DNA from: Zygnema cylindricum
Lineage: Eukaryota > Streptophyta > Zygnematophyceae > Zygnematales > Zygnemataceae
Assembly (NCBI GenBank): GCA_037447655.1
Contig: JBBHKE010001526.1
Coordinates: 158,601 to 222,600, forward strand
Direction: 5' to 3'
DNA length: 64,000 nt
This document shows, piece by piece, positions 4,214-34,977 of this stretch. How positions within the stretch are numbered: position 1 is the first letter of the stretch; each line of letters begins with the position of its first letter. The notes beneath the pieces were generated by a model. It did no database searches and was not told where the DNA came from. It worked only from the letters and a program-made list of their open reading frames with translations. The position numbers and the translations under genes are program-made.

Positions 4214-5065
4214 NNNNNNNNNNNNNNNNNNNNNNNNNNNNNNNNNNNNNNNNNNNNNNNNNNNNNNNNNNNNNNNNNNNNNNNNNNNNNNNNNNNNNNN
4301 NNNNNNNNNNNNNNNNNNNNNNNNNNNNNNNNNNNNNNNNNNNNNNNNNNNNNNNNNNNNNNNNNNNNNNNNNNNNNNNNNNNNNNNNNNNNNNNNNNNN
4401 NNNNNNNNNNNNNNNNNNNNNNNNNNNNNNNNNNNNNNNNNNNNNNNNNNNNNNNNNNNNNNNNNNNNNNNNNNNNNNNNNNNNNNNNNNNNNNNNNNNN
4501 NNNNNNNNNNNNNNNNNNNNNNNNNNNNNNNNNNNNNNNNNNNNNNNNNNNNNNNNNNNNNNNNNNNNNNNNNNNNNNNNNNNNNNNNNNNNNNNNNNNN
4601 NNNNNNNNNNNNNNNNNNNNNNNNNNNNNNNNNNNNNNNNNNNNNNNNNNNNNNNNNNNNNNNNNNNNNNNNNNNNNNNNNNNNNNNNNNNNNNNNNNNN
4701 NNNNNNNNNNNNNNNNNNNNNNNNNNNNNNNNNNNNNNNNNNNNNNNNNNNNNNNNNNNNNNNNNNNNNNNNNNNNNNNNNNNNNNNNNNNNNNNNNNNN
4801 NNNNNNNNNNNNNNNNNNNNNNNNNNNNNNNNNNNNNNNNNNNNNNNNNNNNNNNNNNNNNNNNNNNNNNNNNNNNNNNNNNNNNNNNNNNNNNNNNNNN
4901 NNNNNNNNNNNNNNNNNNNNNNNNNNNNNNNNNNNNNNNNNNNNNNNNNNNNNNNNNNNNNNNNNNNNNNNNNNNNNNNNNNNNNNNNNNNNNNNNNNNN
5001 NNNNNNNNNNNNNNNNNNNNNNNNNNNNNNNNNNNNNNNNNNNNNNNNNNNNNNNNNNNNNNNNN
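4214..5065. other. Assembly gap (852 N)
   Basis: A run of N. Reading frames across it are meaningless. An F3 LTR enters from the left and an F2 LTR leaves on the right, so at least one element boundary is hidden here. Confidence 1.
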
Positions 5066-13347: not shown

Positions 13348-14186
13348 TGTTGTTTTGGAAAGCTTTAGTCCTCTCTATGCCTCGATTGTGAGAGAGAGAG
13401 AGTTTCACGACTTAGCATATGTTTGGTTGTAAGTTCGTTTCATTACACACCAGAATTGATGTTCCACTAGATCGGTAGGGAGTACACCTTTGTATACACT
13501 CCCAAGACACAAGTCACTACAAGAAAGAAGACACTCCAAAATATCCGATTGTTTGTGCATAGATATACTTGAGGACAAAATGGCACATGGAGATTTGTCT
13601 ACGGTGCCGAATGTGATATGTACGCGGCTGAGGGAGACCACCGACAAATGCTGGTCCGTGTGAACCACATACACGACAAATGACGTGGCATATAGAATTC
13701 TACTCCTTTGTAAATATCTAGTTAAGTAGATTTTTGTCTTTGTGTGGTTAGTTGATTAGTAAAGGAATCTTTTTGTGTGACGTACCTTGTTCGGTTTGAG
13801 CCGTAGGTATTTATTGTACGGCTGGTATGCCTCCGTACGTTCAGCAGCATAGGCTTCAGTGTATATTAGTAGGACTTAGATAACTTTGAAGTTATGAACA
13901 TTTTGTAGTCAGAAACTGTACAGCCTGTTTTTGGCATTTTCATCTGTGGATATCTCACAGATCTGTTGGCAGAATTATTTGAAATTTTGTGTATGTGTTC
14001 ATCCTGATATTATCTACTTTGTGGTAGATTTGCAGAGCTATTGTGTCTCTGGTTTGGGTTTTATCAACTGTTGAAGTGTCTGTTTTTCAGACCGGTTTTG
14101 TGAAAGTTTCTTGCTTGGTTTGGTTCCGAGATGACTACACCGGCATCCTCATCGTCTTCGGTTCCGGCTGTTGTCTCAGAACAACA
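13348..14186 (+). repeat. 5' LTR of the F5 element
   Basis: It starts TGTTGTTTTGG and ends ...GAACAACA. It includes the gag ATG at 14131 and the first 18 codons plus 2 nt. The reading frames inside it (for example 13405-13674 minus) recur unchanged in the 3' LTR and are not genes. Confidence 0.95.
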
Positions 14187-17100
14187 GGTCACGGGCCCGC
14201 CTTCACGAATTCCGGTTTTTGATGGGAGAGAATATCTGTATTGGGCAGATCTTGTAAGGTCTTATTTTGTACAAGTGAAGCTTTTTGATGTTGTTAATGG
14301 ATATATGGTAGAAACTGATGTAAACTATGATCAAAAGAATGAGCAGGCTCTTCATTTGATAAAGTTAATGATATCTAAGGAGCTGCATATGACATACATT
14401 CAGGCTTCTAAAGCATCAGAGATTTGGGATGCTTTGAAAAAGACATATTCTAGGGCTAATGCACAACATGAGATTATAACTGCTGGGCAGATTTGGGAAT
14501 ATAAGTATACAGGCGGAAGCATGGCAGAATATTGCAATAAATTCAGACTTCTAGTTGCAGAAAATGCATGTTCAGGTGGTTCATTTCCTGAGTATCACCA
14601 AGCAATGATTTTAGTGAGGGGGCTTCCTAGTGAGTATAAAGGTGCCTATGATGAACTGAAAAAATTGGATAAGACACAGTGGAATCTAGCTACAGCTATA
14701 GAGTATGTGCTAGAAGAAGAAGCAAATCAGTTGGCATTTAATTCTGGAAAACCAGTTGTAGCTTACAATGCTCAGTTTCAAAGAGATAATAGATTTCAAG
14801 GAAATCAGTCCTTTCAGCAATATGAACGGTGTGTCTATTGCTATAATAATGGTCATTTGTACAAGTTTTGTCCTTTGTATATAAAAGCGTGTGAAACAGG
14901 TTCTTACCGCAAAGGATGGAAGGTGAGAGGAGCTCCATTTACACCGAAACCTCCGAGCAAAACCGCAGCTTTTTCAGCGGAGGAAGAGGAACCGGTGAAG
15001 GAGATGGAGAAGGAGAAATCAGAGGTTGTTAGTTTTCCTAAAACTGACGACACCGAGTTCTTTGCAATGGCAAAGATGATGGAGGGAGAGAAAGATCTCG
15101 GGTGGATTATGGACTCCGGAAGTTCCTCCCATATGTGTTGGAACAAATCCTATTTCAAGGATATGACACCTATCCCTACTCGTCAAATCTTTTATGCTTG
15201 TGGTGCCACGGTGGAAGCTAATGCTAAGGGTAGCATAGATCTGAATTGTGAGATAGATGGCAAAGCTGTAAAAAGAACTTTGCATGATGTGTTATATGTG
15301 CCTAAATTTAAGAAAAAATTGTTTTCTACCTCAGTTGCAGAGAGTAAAGGTTTTGATGTTCTTCAGAGCAAAGGCAAAAAGATAGTAAGCAAGGATGGGA
15401 GAGTAGCCTTAGTGGGAACTAGAGGCCCAAACATGTTGTATCGGATGGACCTGGTTAATAAAGTTGATTTTGTGTACTCCAGTGTCCTATCTGAAAATGT
15501 TTTGTGGCATAAAAGGCTTGGGCATGTTCACAATGAGAGGCTTGAAAAGATGGTGAAGACTAATATGATAGATGGTGTCAAGCTTGGTGAAAAGGAATCC
15601 CATGTTTGTGATGGTTGTGCTCTAGGAAAGCTTCATAAGCTTCCCCTACCACAGACTTCAGATTATCGAGCAAAGGATCTTCTCGGCCTTATCCACTCGG
15701 ATGTATGGGGACCGGCCAAAGTTCCTTCTCTTGGTGGAAGGAAATACCTTGTTACCTTCACTGATGACCACTCACGTTTCAGCCGAGTGTACTTTATGAA
15801 GGAGAAGAGCGAGGTCTTCACACATTTCAAGCATTTCCGGATCTGGGCGGAAAAACTTCACGGGAAATCGATCCTTGCTTTGCGATCTGACAACGGTGGA
15901 GAGTATGTATCAAATGCCTTTGCTGAATACTTGAAAGAAAATGGAATTTCTCATGAGTTTACTGTTCCTTACACTCCGGAACAGAATGGTGTGGCTGAAA
16001 GACTCAATAGGACCTTGACTGAATGTGCTATGTCTATGATGATGGATAAAGGTGTAGATCCGAAATTTTGGGGGGAAGCTTTTCAGTGTGCTTCTTACAT
16101 TAGAAATAGAATAGAAACTAGATCTGTGAAGGATAAAACACCTTATGAAATGTGGACAGGAAGAAAGCCGAATGTTAGCCACTTTAGAGTATTTGGGAGT
16201 AAGTGTTTTATGTTGGATAACCTTCCAAATTGGAAATTAAGTCCGAAATCTGTACCTGGGATATTTTTGGGCTATGATGATGAGTCCGTAGGATATAGAG
16301 TGTATAATCCTCAGAAAAATACAATTCAGATTGCTAGGAATATTCAGATCAAAGAAAAAAGTCAATCTGTTGATGTTTTTAGCATGAATGAAGCAGAAAA
16401 GGCAGAAAAATTGCAGGAATATGTCATCCTTGAGCAGATTCCTTTCAAGCTGGTATCAACGGTTTCTTCCTCTACATCTGAACTACCACATGTTTTGGGG
16501 CTGCCTGATCCACCTACTATTGCAACTACTATCGGACCGCCTCCTCCTCCTCCTCCTCCTCCTCCAAGACTGCCTCGGGAACCAACAATTCTCGCTTCAG
16601 ATTTTCCGGGGGGAAGAAGACAAAGCAGCCGGCTGAGAGGTGACCGAGTGGATCATGCTTATTCTGCAATCACAGGGGAGCCTCTTACCATTCAAGAAGC
16701 TTTCTCCGTTCCGGAAAAAGATCTGTGGATTGCTGCGGCAAATGACGAGATAAAGTCAATTATGGAGGCTCAAACTTGGGAGCTTGTGGAACTTCCACCG
16801 GATCGAAAAGCGATTGGTTGTAAGTGGGTATTCAAGTTAAAACTGAATCCTGATAACACCATTGAAAGATATAAGGCTAGGCTTGTTGCTAAGGGGTATA
16901 GCCAAAAAGAGGGCATTGATTATGAAGAGACGTTCTCACCTGCAGTTCGTTTTCCTACTGTTAGGATTCTCTTATCTTTAACAGCAATAGAGGATATGGA
17001 ATTGCATCAAATGGATGTGAAAACAGCTTTCTTGCATGGGGATTTGGAGGAAGTTATATATATGAAGCAACCAGAGGGATATGTAGAAAAAGGGAAAGAA

Positions 17101-18255
17101 AATCTGGTCTGTAAATTGTTGAAGTCCCTTTATGGTCTGAAGCAGGCTCCACGACAGTGGAACCTAAAACTGGATGAATTTTTGACAAATCTTGGCTTTA
17201 CTAGAATCAGTTCAGATCATTCAGTTTATGTTATGCAAGGGGAAGATGGAGTGATATATATTGCTGTTTATGTTGATGATTTGCTGTTGCTAAGCAAATC
17301 CATTAATGAAATTAACAAAATAAAATCAGCTCTAAATTCCCGGTTCGAAATGAAAGATTTAGGGGAGGCTTAGTATATTTTGGGAATTCAGGTAGAAAGG
17401 GATAGAAAACAAAGACTAATTTATTTGACACAGAAGGAAGCCATTGGAAACATGCTTGAAAGGTTCGGCATGTCAGAGGCAAAGGGAAGTGCTACTCCCA
17501 TGGAGTTCAGACAGAAAATAGAAGGGAAAGAATCATATGGTGGGGTTGTGATTGATAACTCTTTGGAGTCAAGGGAGGCAGATTTTATGTCCTCCATTCC
17601 CTACAGGCAGATCGTCGGAAGCCTCATCTACTTCATGAACTGTACCCGTCCGGATATTGCTGCAGCTGTTGGAGCCTTAAGCCGAAGTTTGCAAAATCCA
17701 AAGAAGTCAGATTGGGAGGCAGCAAAGAGAGTTCTTCGATATCTTGCAGGATCTCGAAACCTCCGACTCTCTCTCGGTGGAGAGGAAGTAAAAATTCAGA
17801 CATGGAGCGATGCGAGCTATGGAGATATGCCAAGCCGACGCTCTACTAGTGGATACATTCTCAAGATTGGAAGTGGGACATGCTGCTGGAGCAGCAAACT
17901 TCAGAAGGTGACAGCTCAGTCTACTATGGAGGCTGAGTACATGGCGGCTAGCGCAGCCGTCAAAGAGTTACTTTGGGTAAAGTCTCTCCTTCAAGAGCTT
18001 TTGTTTATGCAATCTGGACCTCAGGTAGTGTGGTGTGACAATCAGGCTGCCATTGCTATTGCATCTAACCCTAGCCATCACTTTAAGAGCAAACACATTG
18101 ATATCAAGCTACACTTTGTGAGAGAGAAGGTTATGGGAAGAGTTCTGAAACTCAGTTATTTACCAGATGAGGAGATGGTTGCTGACATGATGACTAAACC
18201 CTTGCCTGCACCTAAATTAAAGTTTTGCAGAGAGGCATGTGGCTTAAGTGGCTAG
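14131..18255 (+). CDS. Ty1/copia gag-pol polyprotein, one premature stop
   Basis: This is a single frame of 1374 codons for the structural and enzymatic proteins of a copia element. In order: gag (UBN2-type, 1-230), CCHC zinc knuckle C-x2-C-x4-H-x4-C at 234-247 (CVYCYNNGHLYKFC), protease D-S-G at 328-330, GAG-pre-integrase HHCC region (HKRLGHVHN...CDGCALGK, about 459-500), and integrase with D524, D587, E623 (D-35-E spacing). A Pro run follows near 803-812, encoded by a CCT repeat. RT has YVDD at 1047-1050. RNase H ends in CDNQAAIAIASNPSHHFKSKH. The only defect is TAG at 17371-17373 in GEA-x-YILGIQ, where every relative has Lys (AAG): one A-to-T change. The ATG lies inside the LTR, and the primer-binding site is codons 19-23. 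No separate gag stop or frameshift site is seen, so gag and pol are one frame. Confidence 0.95.
14187..14201 (+). other. Primer-binding site, anticodon-arm type (F5)
   Basis: GGTCACGGGCCCGCC directly follows the LTR. It matches 12 of 15 positions of the complement of the plant tRNA-iMet anticodon arm, with one further G-U pair, and lies inside gag. No TGG-type site matching a tRNA 3' end is present. Confidence 0.6.
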
Positions 18256-24556: not shown

Positions 24557-24725
24557 NNNNNNNNNNNNNNNNNNNNNNNNNNNNNNNNNNNNNNNNNNNN
24601 NNNNNNNNNNNNNNNNNNNNNNNNNNNNNNNNNNNNNNNNNNNNNNNNNNNNNNNNNNNNNNNNNNNNNNNNNNNNNNNNNNNNNNNNNNNNNNNNNNNN
24701 NNNNNNNNNNNNNNNNNNNNNNNNN
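24557..24725. other. Assembly gap (169 N)
   Basis: A run of N inside an F4 LTR. The sequence immediately right of it is the left arm of a mirror repeat. Confidence 1.
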
Positions 24726-25048
24726 GGGCCCTCGAAACTTTTTTCCCCAAACGAAGTAAACATCCCTTGGCCCAGTAATATACCACCTTACGGGAACAAA
24801 CCTTGTTGAATCTTCAACCTTACACCTACTCCTCCTTCTTCTCCTTCTCCTCTTTCTCCTACTTCTTTAGAACCTCGTAGAAGTGTAGCCATCTTACCCC
24901 TTCTCTCTTTTCATGTGTCTTTAACGTGCTTCCGTTGTCACACGAAAACCTCCATATTCCCTTCATTTTACATTGAGACTCTGGAGGTATTCAGGAGTCT
25001 CACCTGTCGAAGGTTCTTCGGAGATCCTATTAGGACTGGGGAAACACA
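24726..25048. repeat. Left arm of a perfect 323-base mirror repeat
   Basis: Base for base this equals 25096-25418 read backwards without complementing. Paired positions sum to 50144 and I found no mismatch. It codes for nothing in its own right: apparent frames here are reversed text. The arm starts at the first base after the N gap. Confidence 0.97.
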
Positions 25049-25174
25049 GGTTGTCAGGGTTTTTGTCTGCCAGGGTGGCAGTTATTTTTGCTTAAACACA
25101 AAGGGGTCAGGATTATCCTAGAGGCTTCTTGGAAGCTGTCCACTCTGAGGACTTATGGAGGTCTCAGAGTTACA
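25049..25174 (+). repeat. LTR 3' end (plus orientation), F4 or F3-like
   Basis: GTCTGCCAGGGTGGCAG, then GATTATCCTAGAGGCTTCTTGG, then ATGGAGGTCTCAGAGTTACA is the normal wording of the 3' end of these LTRs, ending with the gag start. 25049-25095 is the mirror-repeat spacer. The right part (25096-25174) is in the right mirror arm. Confidence 0.6.
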
Positions 25175-26355
25175 TTTTACTTCCCTTATACCTCCAAAAG
25201 CACACTGTTGCCTTCGTGCAATTTCTGTGTACTTTTCTCTCTTCCCCATTCTACCGATGTGAAGATGCTCCAAGATTTCTTCATCCTCTTTCTCCTCTTC
25301 CTCTTCTTCCTCCTCATCCACATTCCAACTTCTAAGTTGTTCCAAACAAGGGCATTCCACCATATAATGACCCGGTTCCCTACAAATGAAGCAAACCCCT
25401 TTTTTCAAAGCTCCCGGGTCTTTTCCCCTCCCTTTTTTTCCACCAAAGTTCCGATAAGGTTTACCTTTGTCTTTTTTCCTCTCATCACGCTTCCGCCAAT
25501 CACCGCCGTTCCTCTCATCATGCTTCCGCCAATCACCACCAGCTGTAAATGCATTCACCCTGTCACTTCCCCTACGAAGCTCCAAAGTGCTTTCCCTCAC
25601 AAGAATTATTCCCATAGTAAAGCTCCAAGTCCTTGAGGAACCATCAATTGCCTGCATACGACAAATGATGTTTTCGTACTCATCTGGGAGTTTCATAAGT
25701 AATATACTAATCTTCTTCTCCTCAGATTCTACATATCCCGCGCTAGCAAGCTCAACATATAACGCAACAATATCATTGCAAAACTCTATCATGCTACCGC
25801 CTTTATAAACATAGGCCTCTATTTCATGTTTTACTAATTGCTGCCTTTGAATAGTCTCACTCTTATAAATCTGAATTAGTGCTTCCCATATCTCTGAAGA
25901 CTATGTTAGACTTAAAAGACTGATAGCTATGGACTTAGACACATATCTAAGTATGAGATGTTTTGCTATAGTGTTTTTGTATTCCCATATTTTCCTGTCA
26001 TTTTCTTCAGTTTTAATACCTACAAGTGGTACCATAGCTGAGAGTCTAGCTCCCTTCACCATAGATGTCCCATTTTTCCTTCTCCACTATTTCCCCATCC
26101 ACAAAAAGGTTTTTCCCTTCACCTTCCATTGCAATTGAACTCCGGTTGGTTTTTTGGGCAGCCCCAGATGAAACTCCATAGTGAGCTCCTCCAAAGCTTG
26201 GTGGCGGACACCTCACTTGTCTTGAAACAATTCCCTATAAGTGCTTCTCGAAAAGCAATCCATCTATAGTAAACTCCCAATAATTCAAGTCTGTTCCATC
26301 GAATATAGGCACCCTAGATGGTGGGCCTATAACCTGAAAATTTGAGACCTCCATT
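25175..26355 (-). pseudogene. Ty1/copia gag (5' part of element), family F2
   Basis: Gag on the minus strand begins at the LTR border (ATG 26355-26353). The 25792-25118 piece holds FCNDIVALYVELASAGYVESEEKKISILLMKLPDEYENI, a basic repeat RKRDERKKDKGKPYRNFGGK, a good CCHC zinc knuckle CFICREPGHYMVEC (about 25390-25350), and a run of Glu near 25300 just before the protease region, where it stops. Upstream gag (26355-25800) is broken by stops. It is a 5' fragment only. The matching fragment at 27463-28457 is the closest copy and lacks the Glu run. Confidence 0.85.
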
Positions 26356-27462
26356 GGCCCTCAGAGTAGGCAGATCCAAAAGAAGCTAATCTAGATAGTG
26401 TCGACTCTTAGCTTGATATAAACCCAAGTGAATGACCCCTTGACATTGAGAACCCCAATACAGATTCATCCTTGTGAAATGACACTTTCTGTGTGCTCAG
26501 TTCCACCACAGACTGCAAAGTTAGAATATGAGATTTGGACACATTCACCCACTTTGACTTTCCCTTAAAAATACCGCCACCCTGGCAGACAAAAACTATG
26601 ACCAACTATACCCCTGTGTAGCCTGGACTCCTATGAGTCTGCAGCAAAAAGAATCACTAAAAATGGTCAAGTAAATTGATAGTTATGGCTGCACAAAGTA
26701 AGCCATTTATATAAGATGCTCTTTGGGAGAGGCGACTACCTACTCAAAATATTCTAAGTCCTATTCTCACTCTAATACCCTATCCACTGACGTACGACAC
26801 CAATCACTTCACTGTACCGTACAGATAAGTACAGGTGCCGGTGTACTTTCTGTACGACAATCGTACGATATGGCTGAAATGTCAACACATGTCATATATC
26901 TATTTGTTCCAGTAATCTCCGGTGTTGCCGCAATCCAATGTTGACATGCCATGTGTCATCCTGTGTGGCGATGACCGCAAACCGCCAGAAGTACATATCC
27001 CGCGATCGCGGCGCCTATCGTGGCCGTCCGATCAAACCCGGCTACATTTCTAGCCGTTGAAAATAGACGCGCGGTATTTGTTTCGTGGTCGAACCGAATG
27101 CGCGGTATCTGTTTCAATAAATAAATCCGTACTCCATACTATCCATAACTGTATCTATGCAATACGTATATATTTCCAGTTAAATGAACTAGTCTACGTG
27201 TAACTATTTAAATAGTTATCAAACCCCATATGTCATAATACTAGCTCTAGTCTAAACAGATAAAGTCACCGGCTACTTTTGGTAAGTCTTACTAATTTAC
27301 CCCCTGTCTTCTCTAGAGAGCTTAGGCAGTCATGTCTCTAGCTCCCTATCCAGCCTTCAGTGACTACAACTAGTGTGGGGGCTTGGAGAGTGGAGTTAGA
27401 GGCAGACTGCCCCTGCCTTTTTCTATCCTATTATAGACCTAGAAAATACATAAATATCAACA
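26335..27462 (-). repeat. 5' LTR of family F2
   Basis: The left border follows the primer-binding site (26320-26334, 14 of 15 to the tRNA-iMet arm). The right border is ...AATATCAACA (27462). The GTAC block with GTGCCGGTGTACTTT is at 26832-26850, CCATGTGTCATC near 26949, and the CAGTCATGTCTCTAGCTCC block near 27325. The antisense tRNA module is degraded in this copy. Confidence 0.8.
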
Positions 27463-28457
27463 CACTCCTCCATATGGTGACCCAGTTCTCTACAAAAGAA
27501 GCAAACCCTTTTTTTCAAAGCTCCCCTTTCTTTTCTTCTCCCTCTCTTTCCACCGAAGTTTTGATAAGGTTTACCTTTGTATTTTTTCCTCTCATCACGC
27601 TTCCGCTCATCGCCGCAATTCCTCACATCACGCTTCCGCCAATAACCACCAGCTGTAAATGCAGTCACCTTGTCACTTCCCCTACGAAGCTCCAAGGTGC
27701 TTTCCCTCACAAGTATTATCCCCATGGTGATGCTCCAAGTCCACGAGGAGACATCCATTCCCTGCATACGGTAAATGATGTCTTCGTACTCATCAGGGAG
27801 TTTCATGATTAGTGTATTAATCTTTCTCTCCTCAGATTCAACATATCGTGCACTAGAAAAGCTCAACATATAATGCAGCAATATCATTGCAAAACTCTAT
27901 CATGCTACCGCCTTTATAAGCATAGGCCTCTATTTCTTGTTTTACTAACTGCTGCCTCTGTATAGTCTCACTCTTATAAATCTGAATTAGTGCTTCCTAT
28001 ATCTCTGAAGACTTGATTAGACTTAAAAGAGTGATAGCTATGAACTTAGACACATATCTAAGTATGAGATGTTTTGCTATAGTGTTTTTATATTCCAAAG
28101 TATTCATATCATTTTCTTCAGTTTTTTTTTTCAGTTATAACCCGCACAAGTGGAACCGTAGCTGAGAGCCTAGCTCCCCTCACCATAGGTGTCTTTTAAT
28201 CCTTCTCCCCTATTTCCCCTTCCACCGTAATGATTTTCCCTTCACCATCCGTTGCATCTGAACTCCGGTTGGTTTTCTAAGCAGCCCCAGATGATTCTCC
28301 ATAGTGAGCTCCTCCAAAACTTGGTGGCGGACACCTCACTTGTCCTGAAACAATTCCCCATAAGTGCTTCTCAAAAAGCAACCCCTCCATCGTTAACTCC
28401 CAATAAGTGAAGTCCGTTCCATCGAACATAGGCACCCAAGATGGTGGGCCCATAACC
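27463..28457 (-). pseudogene. Ty1/copia gag fragment, family F2
   Basis: This is gag from MEPIEFQVMGPPSWVPMFDGTDFTYW (28478-28400) to the zinc knuckle CFFCRELGHHMEEC (about 27490-27460), where the LTR of the neighbouring F2 element abuts. It contains LIMKLPDEYEDIIYRMQGM and ESTLELRRGSDKV. It is frameshifted near 27890 and 28140. The primer-binding site 28443-28457 reads GGTTATGGGCCCACC on the minus strand, a 15 of 15 match (16 with the next base). Confidence 0.85.
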
Positions 28458-29758
28458 TGAAATTCTATGGGCTCCATTGCCACACAGAATTTGCAGATCA
28501 AAAGGAAGCTAATCTAGATAGTGCCGAATCCAACTTGATATAAACCCAAATGATTGACCCTTTGACAATCAGAACCCCATCACAGCTTCACCCCTGTGAA
28601 ATAAGACTTTCTGTGTGCTCAGTTCCACCACAGAATGCAAAGTTAGAATATGAGATTCGTACACATTCACCCACTTTGACTTCCCTTAGAAATGCTGCCA
28701 CCCAGGCAGGCAAAGACTCTGACCAACTACACCAATGTGTAGCCTGGACTCCCTTGAGTTCGCGGCAAAAAGAATCACTGAAAATGGTCAACTGAATTGA
28801 TTGTTATGGCTGGCCAAAGTTTGCCATTTATACAAGGTGCTCTCTGGGAGAGGCAGCTACCTACCATAAATATTCTAAGTCTTAAACCCCTCTCTAAACC
28901 CTCTAGTACTGAGGTACGGACCAATCACATTATTGTATAGTATATAAAGGTACAGATGTCGGTGTACCTTTTATACGATCATCGTACGACATGGCTTAAA
29001 AGTCAACACATGTCTTATCCGGATTCGCTCTTATAATCTACGGAATTCCTGCCTCCAAATCTTATCTCTCAACGTGGGGCCAGGTCATGCCGCGTCAGAA
29101 AAATGGTACCGTACAAGAAAGTACAAGTGCCGGAGTACTTTTTGTACGAACATTGTACGATGTCGCCATAGTGCGATATTTGTCACTTCTGGATTTGTTT
29201 TCTGCTGTTCCAAAAATTCCGTAATCCCGTACGTTGTTGCCACGTGTCATTTGGAGTGGCGGAGTCCGCAAACCGCCAAGTTGTCCTTTCCGCGAGACCG
29301 GCGCTAACCACGGTCGTCCGATTGATATAGGTATTAGATAAGAACCGTCGAAACAAATGTTCGTACTATTTGTTTCGTCCGATACTAATAGTACAACTGT
29401 TTCTATGTCCTATAGACCGTAATCTAGTTAAATGGGAAAACCTACGTGTATATGTTTAAATACATATCAAACCCTATATACCTTAGCACAAGTCCTAGAC
29501 TAAACGGACAAAGCTAATGGCTACTATGACGGATGGCAGGTACCAGGATCAAATCCTGGGTCCGTCATTCCTTTTTGTAAATCTACTCAGATTATACTAC
29601 CTCTCTCTCTAGACAACTTAGGCAGCCATGGCTCTAGCTCCCTTTTCAGCCTCTAGTGACTACAACAAGTGTGGGGGCTTGGAGAAGAAGTTAGAGGCAG
29701 ACTGCCTCTACTATTTTCCTATCCTAAAATAGACCTAGAAAATACTCAAATATCAAGA
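28458..29758 (-). repeat. F2 LTR, left arm of a head-to-head pair
   Basis: It runs from the gag border to ...TATCAAGA (29758). It carries a tRNA-like module on the plus strand: ACGGAC at about 29501 pairs with GTCCGT (29560-29565), T-arm CCAGGATCAAATCCTGG (about 29543-29559), B box GGATCAAATCC (29546-29556), and TTTTT at 29572-29576. An internal duplication of the GTAC promoter block occurs (28920-28990 and 29105-29165). The next base begins an inverted F2 LTR. Confidence 0.8.
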
Positions 29759-34109: not shown

Positions 34110-34977
34110 CTAACTTCAACAAAACGTATCTGAGCAAGAGGTCGCCGTTGATTTTGCAAACCTCCTTAAGGCACTATCTTATATTCAAGTGCGTGCTCTT
34201 TTACAATCGTGTTTTGGGCATGGGGCTGGTGCGTGGCTACAAACGACACCAACCTTTTCGAAACTTTGTTTATCCCTTGACAAATTTACTTATACTCTAC
34301 ACTTACGGTTGGGATTGACTCACCCTCCTTTTTTAGCGGGGCTCGGTGTGTTTGCAACCAACCCATTGATGGTGAAGGAATCCATTTGCTTAGTTGCTCG
34401 CATGGGGGGAACGAACGCGATCGCGCATGATTTGGTGCGAGATGCCATTGTTGCCATTAGAGCGAAGGAGGGCTACACCGTCAAATGTGAGGTTTCTAAC
34501 ATACTTCCACCTCGGCCCGAATCTGAGGGTTGTTTGAGCCTTCGGGTTGAAATGATTTTCTTCGTGGTGATGGGAGGACGCTTGGCAATGTGGTCCTTAC
34601 GGATCCGACTGGGACATATAATCTCGAGCTGCTTTGCTCAATACGCAGTGGCAACAAAAAAAAGAGACTACGCTCAACAAAACGCGTCGAAGCAGTTTGA
34701 CCCATTACCTGTGGAGATTTTTTTATCTTTGGACAAGTGTTTTGATGACTTCCTTCACCAATGTGCGCGAAAAACATTTGAATCACGAGGTTTGGGGAGT
34801 CCTTTACCGAGTTTTTTACGTGCGTTTTATCGTCAATGTGTCTCTATAGAAATTCAACGGGCACAAGCTACGACTCTCATTCGCCGTAGTACGCTAGCCG
34901 ATGACAAGACGGGTTTTCTTGACCTTCCACCAAGGGACCCGGTTCACATCCATGATCTCCGTGGTTGTGGACCTTAG
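34110..34977 (+). pseudogene. C-terminal region of a non-LTR-type reverse transcriptase polyprotein, 5'-truncated
   Basis: The frame 34189-34977 carries GHGAGAWLQTTP, HDLVRDAIVAIRAKEGY, KQFDPLPVEIFLSLDKCFDDFLHQCAR and FYRQCVSIEIQRAQATTLIRR. From memory this pattern matches the domain that follows the RT domain in a family of plant and algal reverse-transcriptase ORFs. That assignment is recall, not a search. Between about 34560 and 34660 the frame is wrong: an alternative frame there restores GRTLGNVVLTDPT-type wording, so two compensating indels exist. No RT domain lies upstream (the 5' side holds tandem repeats), so this is a truncated copy. The 3' side (to about 35215, CAATAAAGAATTG) may be its untranslated tail. 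Confidence 0.6.

Follow-up and report, generated by a model that had tools for sequence, protein, structure and literature searches.

Introduction

Mirror repeats are sequences whose symmetry lies within one strand, and those described as natural H-DNA motifs are, in the passages of the literature available to us, homopurine-homopyrimidine (polypurine-polypyrimidine) tracts. The window analysed here, a stretch of 64,000 nucleotides of Zygnema cylindricum DNA, contains a mirror repeat with arms of 323 bases that has the same one-strand symmetry. It is unlike the H-DNA motifs of those passages, however, in that its arms are of mixed sequence, mostly within a gag frame, and in that it lies flush with an assembly gap.

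The second point of comparison is technical. Misassembly at gap edges may arise during gap filling or contig extension, and GapFiller (PMC3446322) is an example of a program that performs such a step. The passages of that article available to us describe no reversed, uncomplemented output, and the word 'reverse' has no occurrence in its main text; moreover, nothing ties the present assembly to that program. Similarly, no description of a gap artefact that is reversed without being complemented was found in the parts of the open-access literature searched. From the comparisons reported below, the mirror at 24726-25418 is almost certainly an artefact of the assembly at a gap edge, with no biological structure behind it.

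Anatomy of the mirror repeat

The site comprises four features, none of which is assigned to a strand:

24557-24725, no strand: assembly gap of 169 Ns (direct sequence check).

24726-25048, no strand: arm that is almost certainly artefactual, the uncomplemented reverse of 25096-25418, placed between the Ns and the point at which the contig proper starts (323/323 identity).

25049-25095, no strand: spacer, real sequence and the outermost portion of the contig edge proper (forward-type from end to end; it continues into the right arm in L018, a copy without a gap).

25096-25418, no strand: template arm, real sequence (forward string matched at 40 scored places, itself included, 40 of 2746 candidates having been scored; PF14223 and PF00098 matches).

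The initial annotation had described a perfect mirror of 323 bases with a 47-base spacer, whose paired positions sum to 50144 and whose left arm follows directly on a 169-N gap, and direct computer comparison of the two arms with each other bears out all of these points. Once one arm is reversed without complementing, the two are identical over 323 of 323 positions, with no mismatch. The pairing stops after exactly 323 pairs, and there are 17 differing pairs inside the spacer.

A scan of the window for mirrors (16-base seeds containing no fewer than three different letters) found 20 bases as the next longest match elsewhere in the 64 kb, and chance is therefore excluded for the 323-base mirror. 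It could still be asked whether composition is responsible, as in an H-DNA-like polypyrimidine tract, given that the right arm is CT-rich at ~25277-25316. Set against 323 matches out of 323 in mixed sequence and a next best mirror of 20 bases in the window, a chance or compositional origin is practically inconceivable. A natural H-DNA mirror was likewise rejected as a candidate, as the arms are not homopurine-homopyrimidine.

The window has a second gap, of 852 Ns at 4214-5065, and no mirrored flanks were found there, the best match being 14 bases. The fault is thus absent from some gaps, with one of the two gaps in the window affected.

The element carrying the template arm

Most of the template arm (25118-25418) falls in an open frame on the minus strand, 25118-25900, which matches PF14223 (copia gag) and PF00098 (zinc knuckle). 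Among the 40 scored places in the assembly that match the right arm, 37 do so over ~25176-25416 only. The interval 25049-25175, on the gap side of gag, is another repeat piece and may be LTR-like. The earlier placement of the left arm inside an LTR is thus right in part: it may hold for 25049-25175, but the right arm is mostly a copia-type gag frame.

Several other features were recorded. The neighbouring segments 25353-26897 and 27463-29018 are about 85% alike, lie in direct orientation and both contain gag-like frames. At L020 (C2494:11500-21499), outside the window, the gag-bearing element occurs in tandem, with copies ~3.05 kb apart. In the window itself, 14104-18255 on the plus strand consists of a long copia-type frame (14104-17373), one stop codon and then an open stretch in the same frame (17374-18255). 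A copia RNase H query retrieved relatives of mixed sources at 37-47% identity (best 120 of 3653), and the open frame at 34114-34974, used as a query, retrieved no relatives.

Comparison with gap-free copies

The assembly searched amounts to 352.8 Mb in 2689 contigs. At its full length, the left arm has a single match in it, namely itself, and none of the 19 gap-free loci that carry this element (L018-L036) contains a match to it. In L018, the spacer (98% identity over 47 bases) is contiguous with the right arm (92%), and the same arrangement is present in L019, with 93% over 43 bases for the spacer and 86% for the right arm. On the other side of the gap, the flank is ordinary throughout, and its alignment with L018 extends to the final base.

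Compared with gap-free copies in both directions, 99% of the bases of the left arm match the copies read in reverse, and 1% match them read forward. As the outer arm is thus reversed-type and the spacer and inner arm are forward-type, the arm was appended to the true edge of the contig, near 25049. Each of the 19 gap-free loci is a 10-kb stretch, and no mirror of at least 25 bases was found in them beyond four self-centred simple repeats in two loci.

Mirrors at other gaps

With the left arm as query, 25 other loci of the assembly were matched at a best E no higher than 1.3e-6, for the most part by the inner 79 bases of the arm. As many as 24 of the 25 have a mirror of their own that reaches an N gap, perfect in 23 and with three mismatches in L045, although mirrored gaps outside the window were found by way of reversed-sequence queries, so that these counts give no share of affected gaps. 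The remaining locus, L052, has neither gap nor mirror, and its match to the left arm is 42 nt long. At L010 (C906), a 10-N gap at 1650-1659 has mirrored arms on both sides, of 161 and 219 bases. Where at least 500 bases are visible on each side of the gap, which is the case for 19 gaps, a perfect mirror is present on the right only in 16, on both sides in one and on the left only in one; the last (L045) has an imperfect mirror on the right. L014 and L058 show weak self-centred mirrors to the left of the gap; these consist of CT-rich simple repeats and were left out of the counts.

A fault limited to one element was ruled out, as mirrors at gaps were also found with a second copia element. A reversed 400-base piece of that different element (17600-17999) gave 15 matches in the assembly, and in all four loci examined the mirror is flush with a gap. 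For the reversed string of 26567-26966 there were 64 candidates, of which 40 were scored, all as matches; these are match counts only.

The mirror of the window thus abuts an N run, is missing from gap-free copies and recurs at other gaps of the assembly. The interpretation favoured in the initial annotation, an artefact in which sequence was reversed without being complemented, is supported by the recurrence at other gaps, by the result with the second query and by the absence from the 19 gap-free loci.

Side bias and sizes

For a wider description we collected 29 flush sides, made up of the window's own, 24 sides at 23 loci and four sides from the second copia query. L056 was entered by its perfect outer 265 bases, and L045 was left out. 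In these sides, the arms measure 61-358 bases and the spacers 14-254 bases. The sum of arm plus spacer has a median of 369 and lies between 331 and 394 in 19 of the 29 sides.

In file orientation, the mirrored side lies on the right of its gap in 25 of the 29 cases (two-sided binomial P ~1e-4, the window site, from which the query was taken, being among the 25). The sums for the four left-of-gap sides are 82, 230, 278 and 482, all outside the 331-394 peak. As the preference for the right side follows the orientation of the file, it is without biological meaning.

These observations also bear on the possibility that the mirror is real, that is, a repeat created by copying in parallel polarity, which would stall sequencing or assembly and so cause the gaps. 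The mirror is indeed perfect and recurs beside gaps, and gaps might in principle result from a structure that resists sequencing. Nevertheless, the mirrors reach the N run itself, 25 of the 29 are on the right in file orientation, none is present in the 19 gap-free loci carrying this element, and more than one element is affected. Furthermore, we know of no polymerase that copies in parallel (mirror) polarity. We consequently regard a real mirror repeat as extremely improbable.

Orientation of arms and spacers

Gap-free copies, in forward and in reversed reading, served as the reference for each of the 29 sides. The outer arm is reversed-type over more than half of its length in 26 sides; for the remaining three (38%, 16% and 0%), coverage by the reference is poor. 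Its forward-type share is at most 15% in every one of the 29 sides. The spacer is forward-type in 23 sides (that of L058 also matches reversed copies), reversed-type in four and undecided in two. The reversed-type spacers are those of L038, L055 and L056, together with that of L051 over 14 bases only.

The spacer is forward-type in most sides, the window included, and its outer end is thus the true edge of the contig there. In L038, L055, L056 and L051, the spacer is reversed-type, so that the appended piece exceeds the mirrored arm and includes sequence not present in the adjacent contig. The idea that the junction between mirror and spacer always marks the true contig edge was thus rejected on account of these four spacers (14 bases in the case of L051), although it holds at the window site. 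Matches to 'natural' sequence were obtained for the outer arms of 18 of the 29 sides, and all of them are in L038, one of the loci with a reversed-type spacer.

Alignments of the junctions to real copies were inspected for 25 sides. Most end within a few bases of the junction and a few extend 11-25 bases into the arm, and in three of the 25 sides no alignment crosses the junction between mirror and spacer. Where usable relatives exist, which is so for 23 sides, the arm and the true continuation have 0-3 bases in common. The earlier proposal, that a read or a contig end was reversed in the course of gap filling, agrees with an arm that starts where homology to real copies ends and with the location of 25 of the 29 sides to the right of the gap.

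The agreement between arm and contig has exceptions. The arm differs from the adjacent contig at three positions in L045 and at one in 323 in L056. These differences matter for a purely clerical explanation, in which a script handling the files reversed the text of contig ends during scaffold writing, without involvement of reads. Such a script would account for the outer arm being the letter-perfect reverse of the adjacent contig at most of the 29 flush sides. Copying of text would not, however, generate the mismatches of L045 and L056, nor would it supply the reversed element sequence that L038, L055, L056 and L051 (14 bases) carry and that is absent from the adjacent contig end. A script acting on contig text alone therefore seems unlikely. 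Because of the same mismatches, and because four sides carry reversed sequence that their adjacent contig does not have, we infer that reads were the source of the appended piece.

Discussion

Our preferred reading remains that of sequence written in reverse at the edge of a gap. In the mechanism that we propose, the true contig to the right of the gap would begin at ~25049. A gap-filling or contig-extension step would have taken read sequence from the first ~370 bases of this right-hand contig. The read sequence would then have been written backwards without being complemented, and the reversed piece attached blunt outside the contig edge, with 169 Ns left.

Gap filling is, in our view, the step probably at fault, and the peak at ~370 bases would reflect either the length of the reads or the size of the inserts. 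Reads of the 454 type are a candidate source of the ~370-base length, and the 10-N gaps may be Velvet-like minimum gaps. As the types of spacer are mixed and the left-side cases are off the 331-394 peak, the fault may have arisen along more than one path. For the assembly in general, it is likely that the fault is systematic, such that reads placed reversed and uncomplemented at gap edges, mainly on the right, gave rise to false mirrors at many gaps and in more than one retroelement.

False mirror repeats of this kind can contaminate repeat libraries, surveys of non-B DNA and gene models. As an example of the hazard for gene models, the open frame 25034-25636 begins within the false arm. If each gap flank were compared with its reversed string, the false mirrors could be located and masked, and the same screen could be applied to further draft genomes produced with this software. 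We suggest that a long mirror repeat flush with Ns be presumed an artefact until reads show otherwise. The value of the finding is thus that of a warning about data quality in this assembly.
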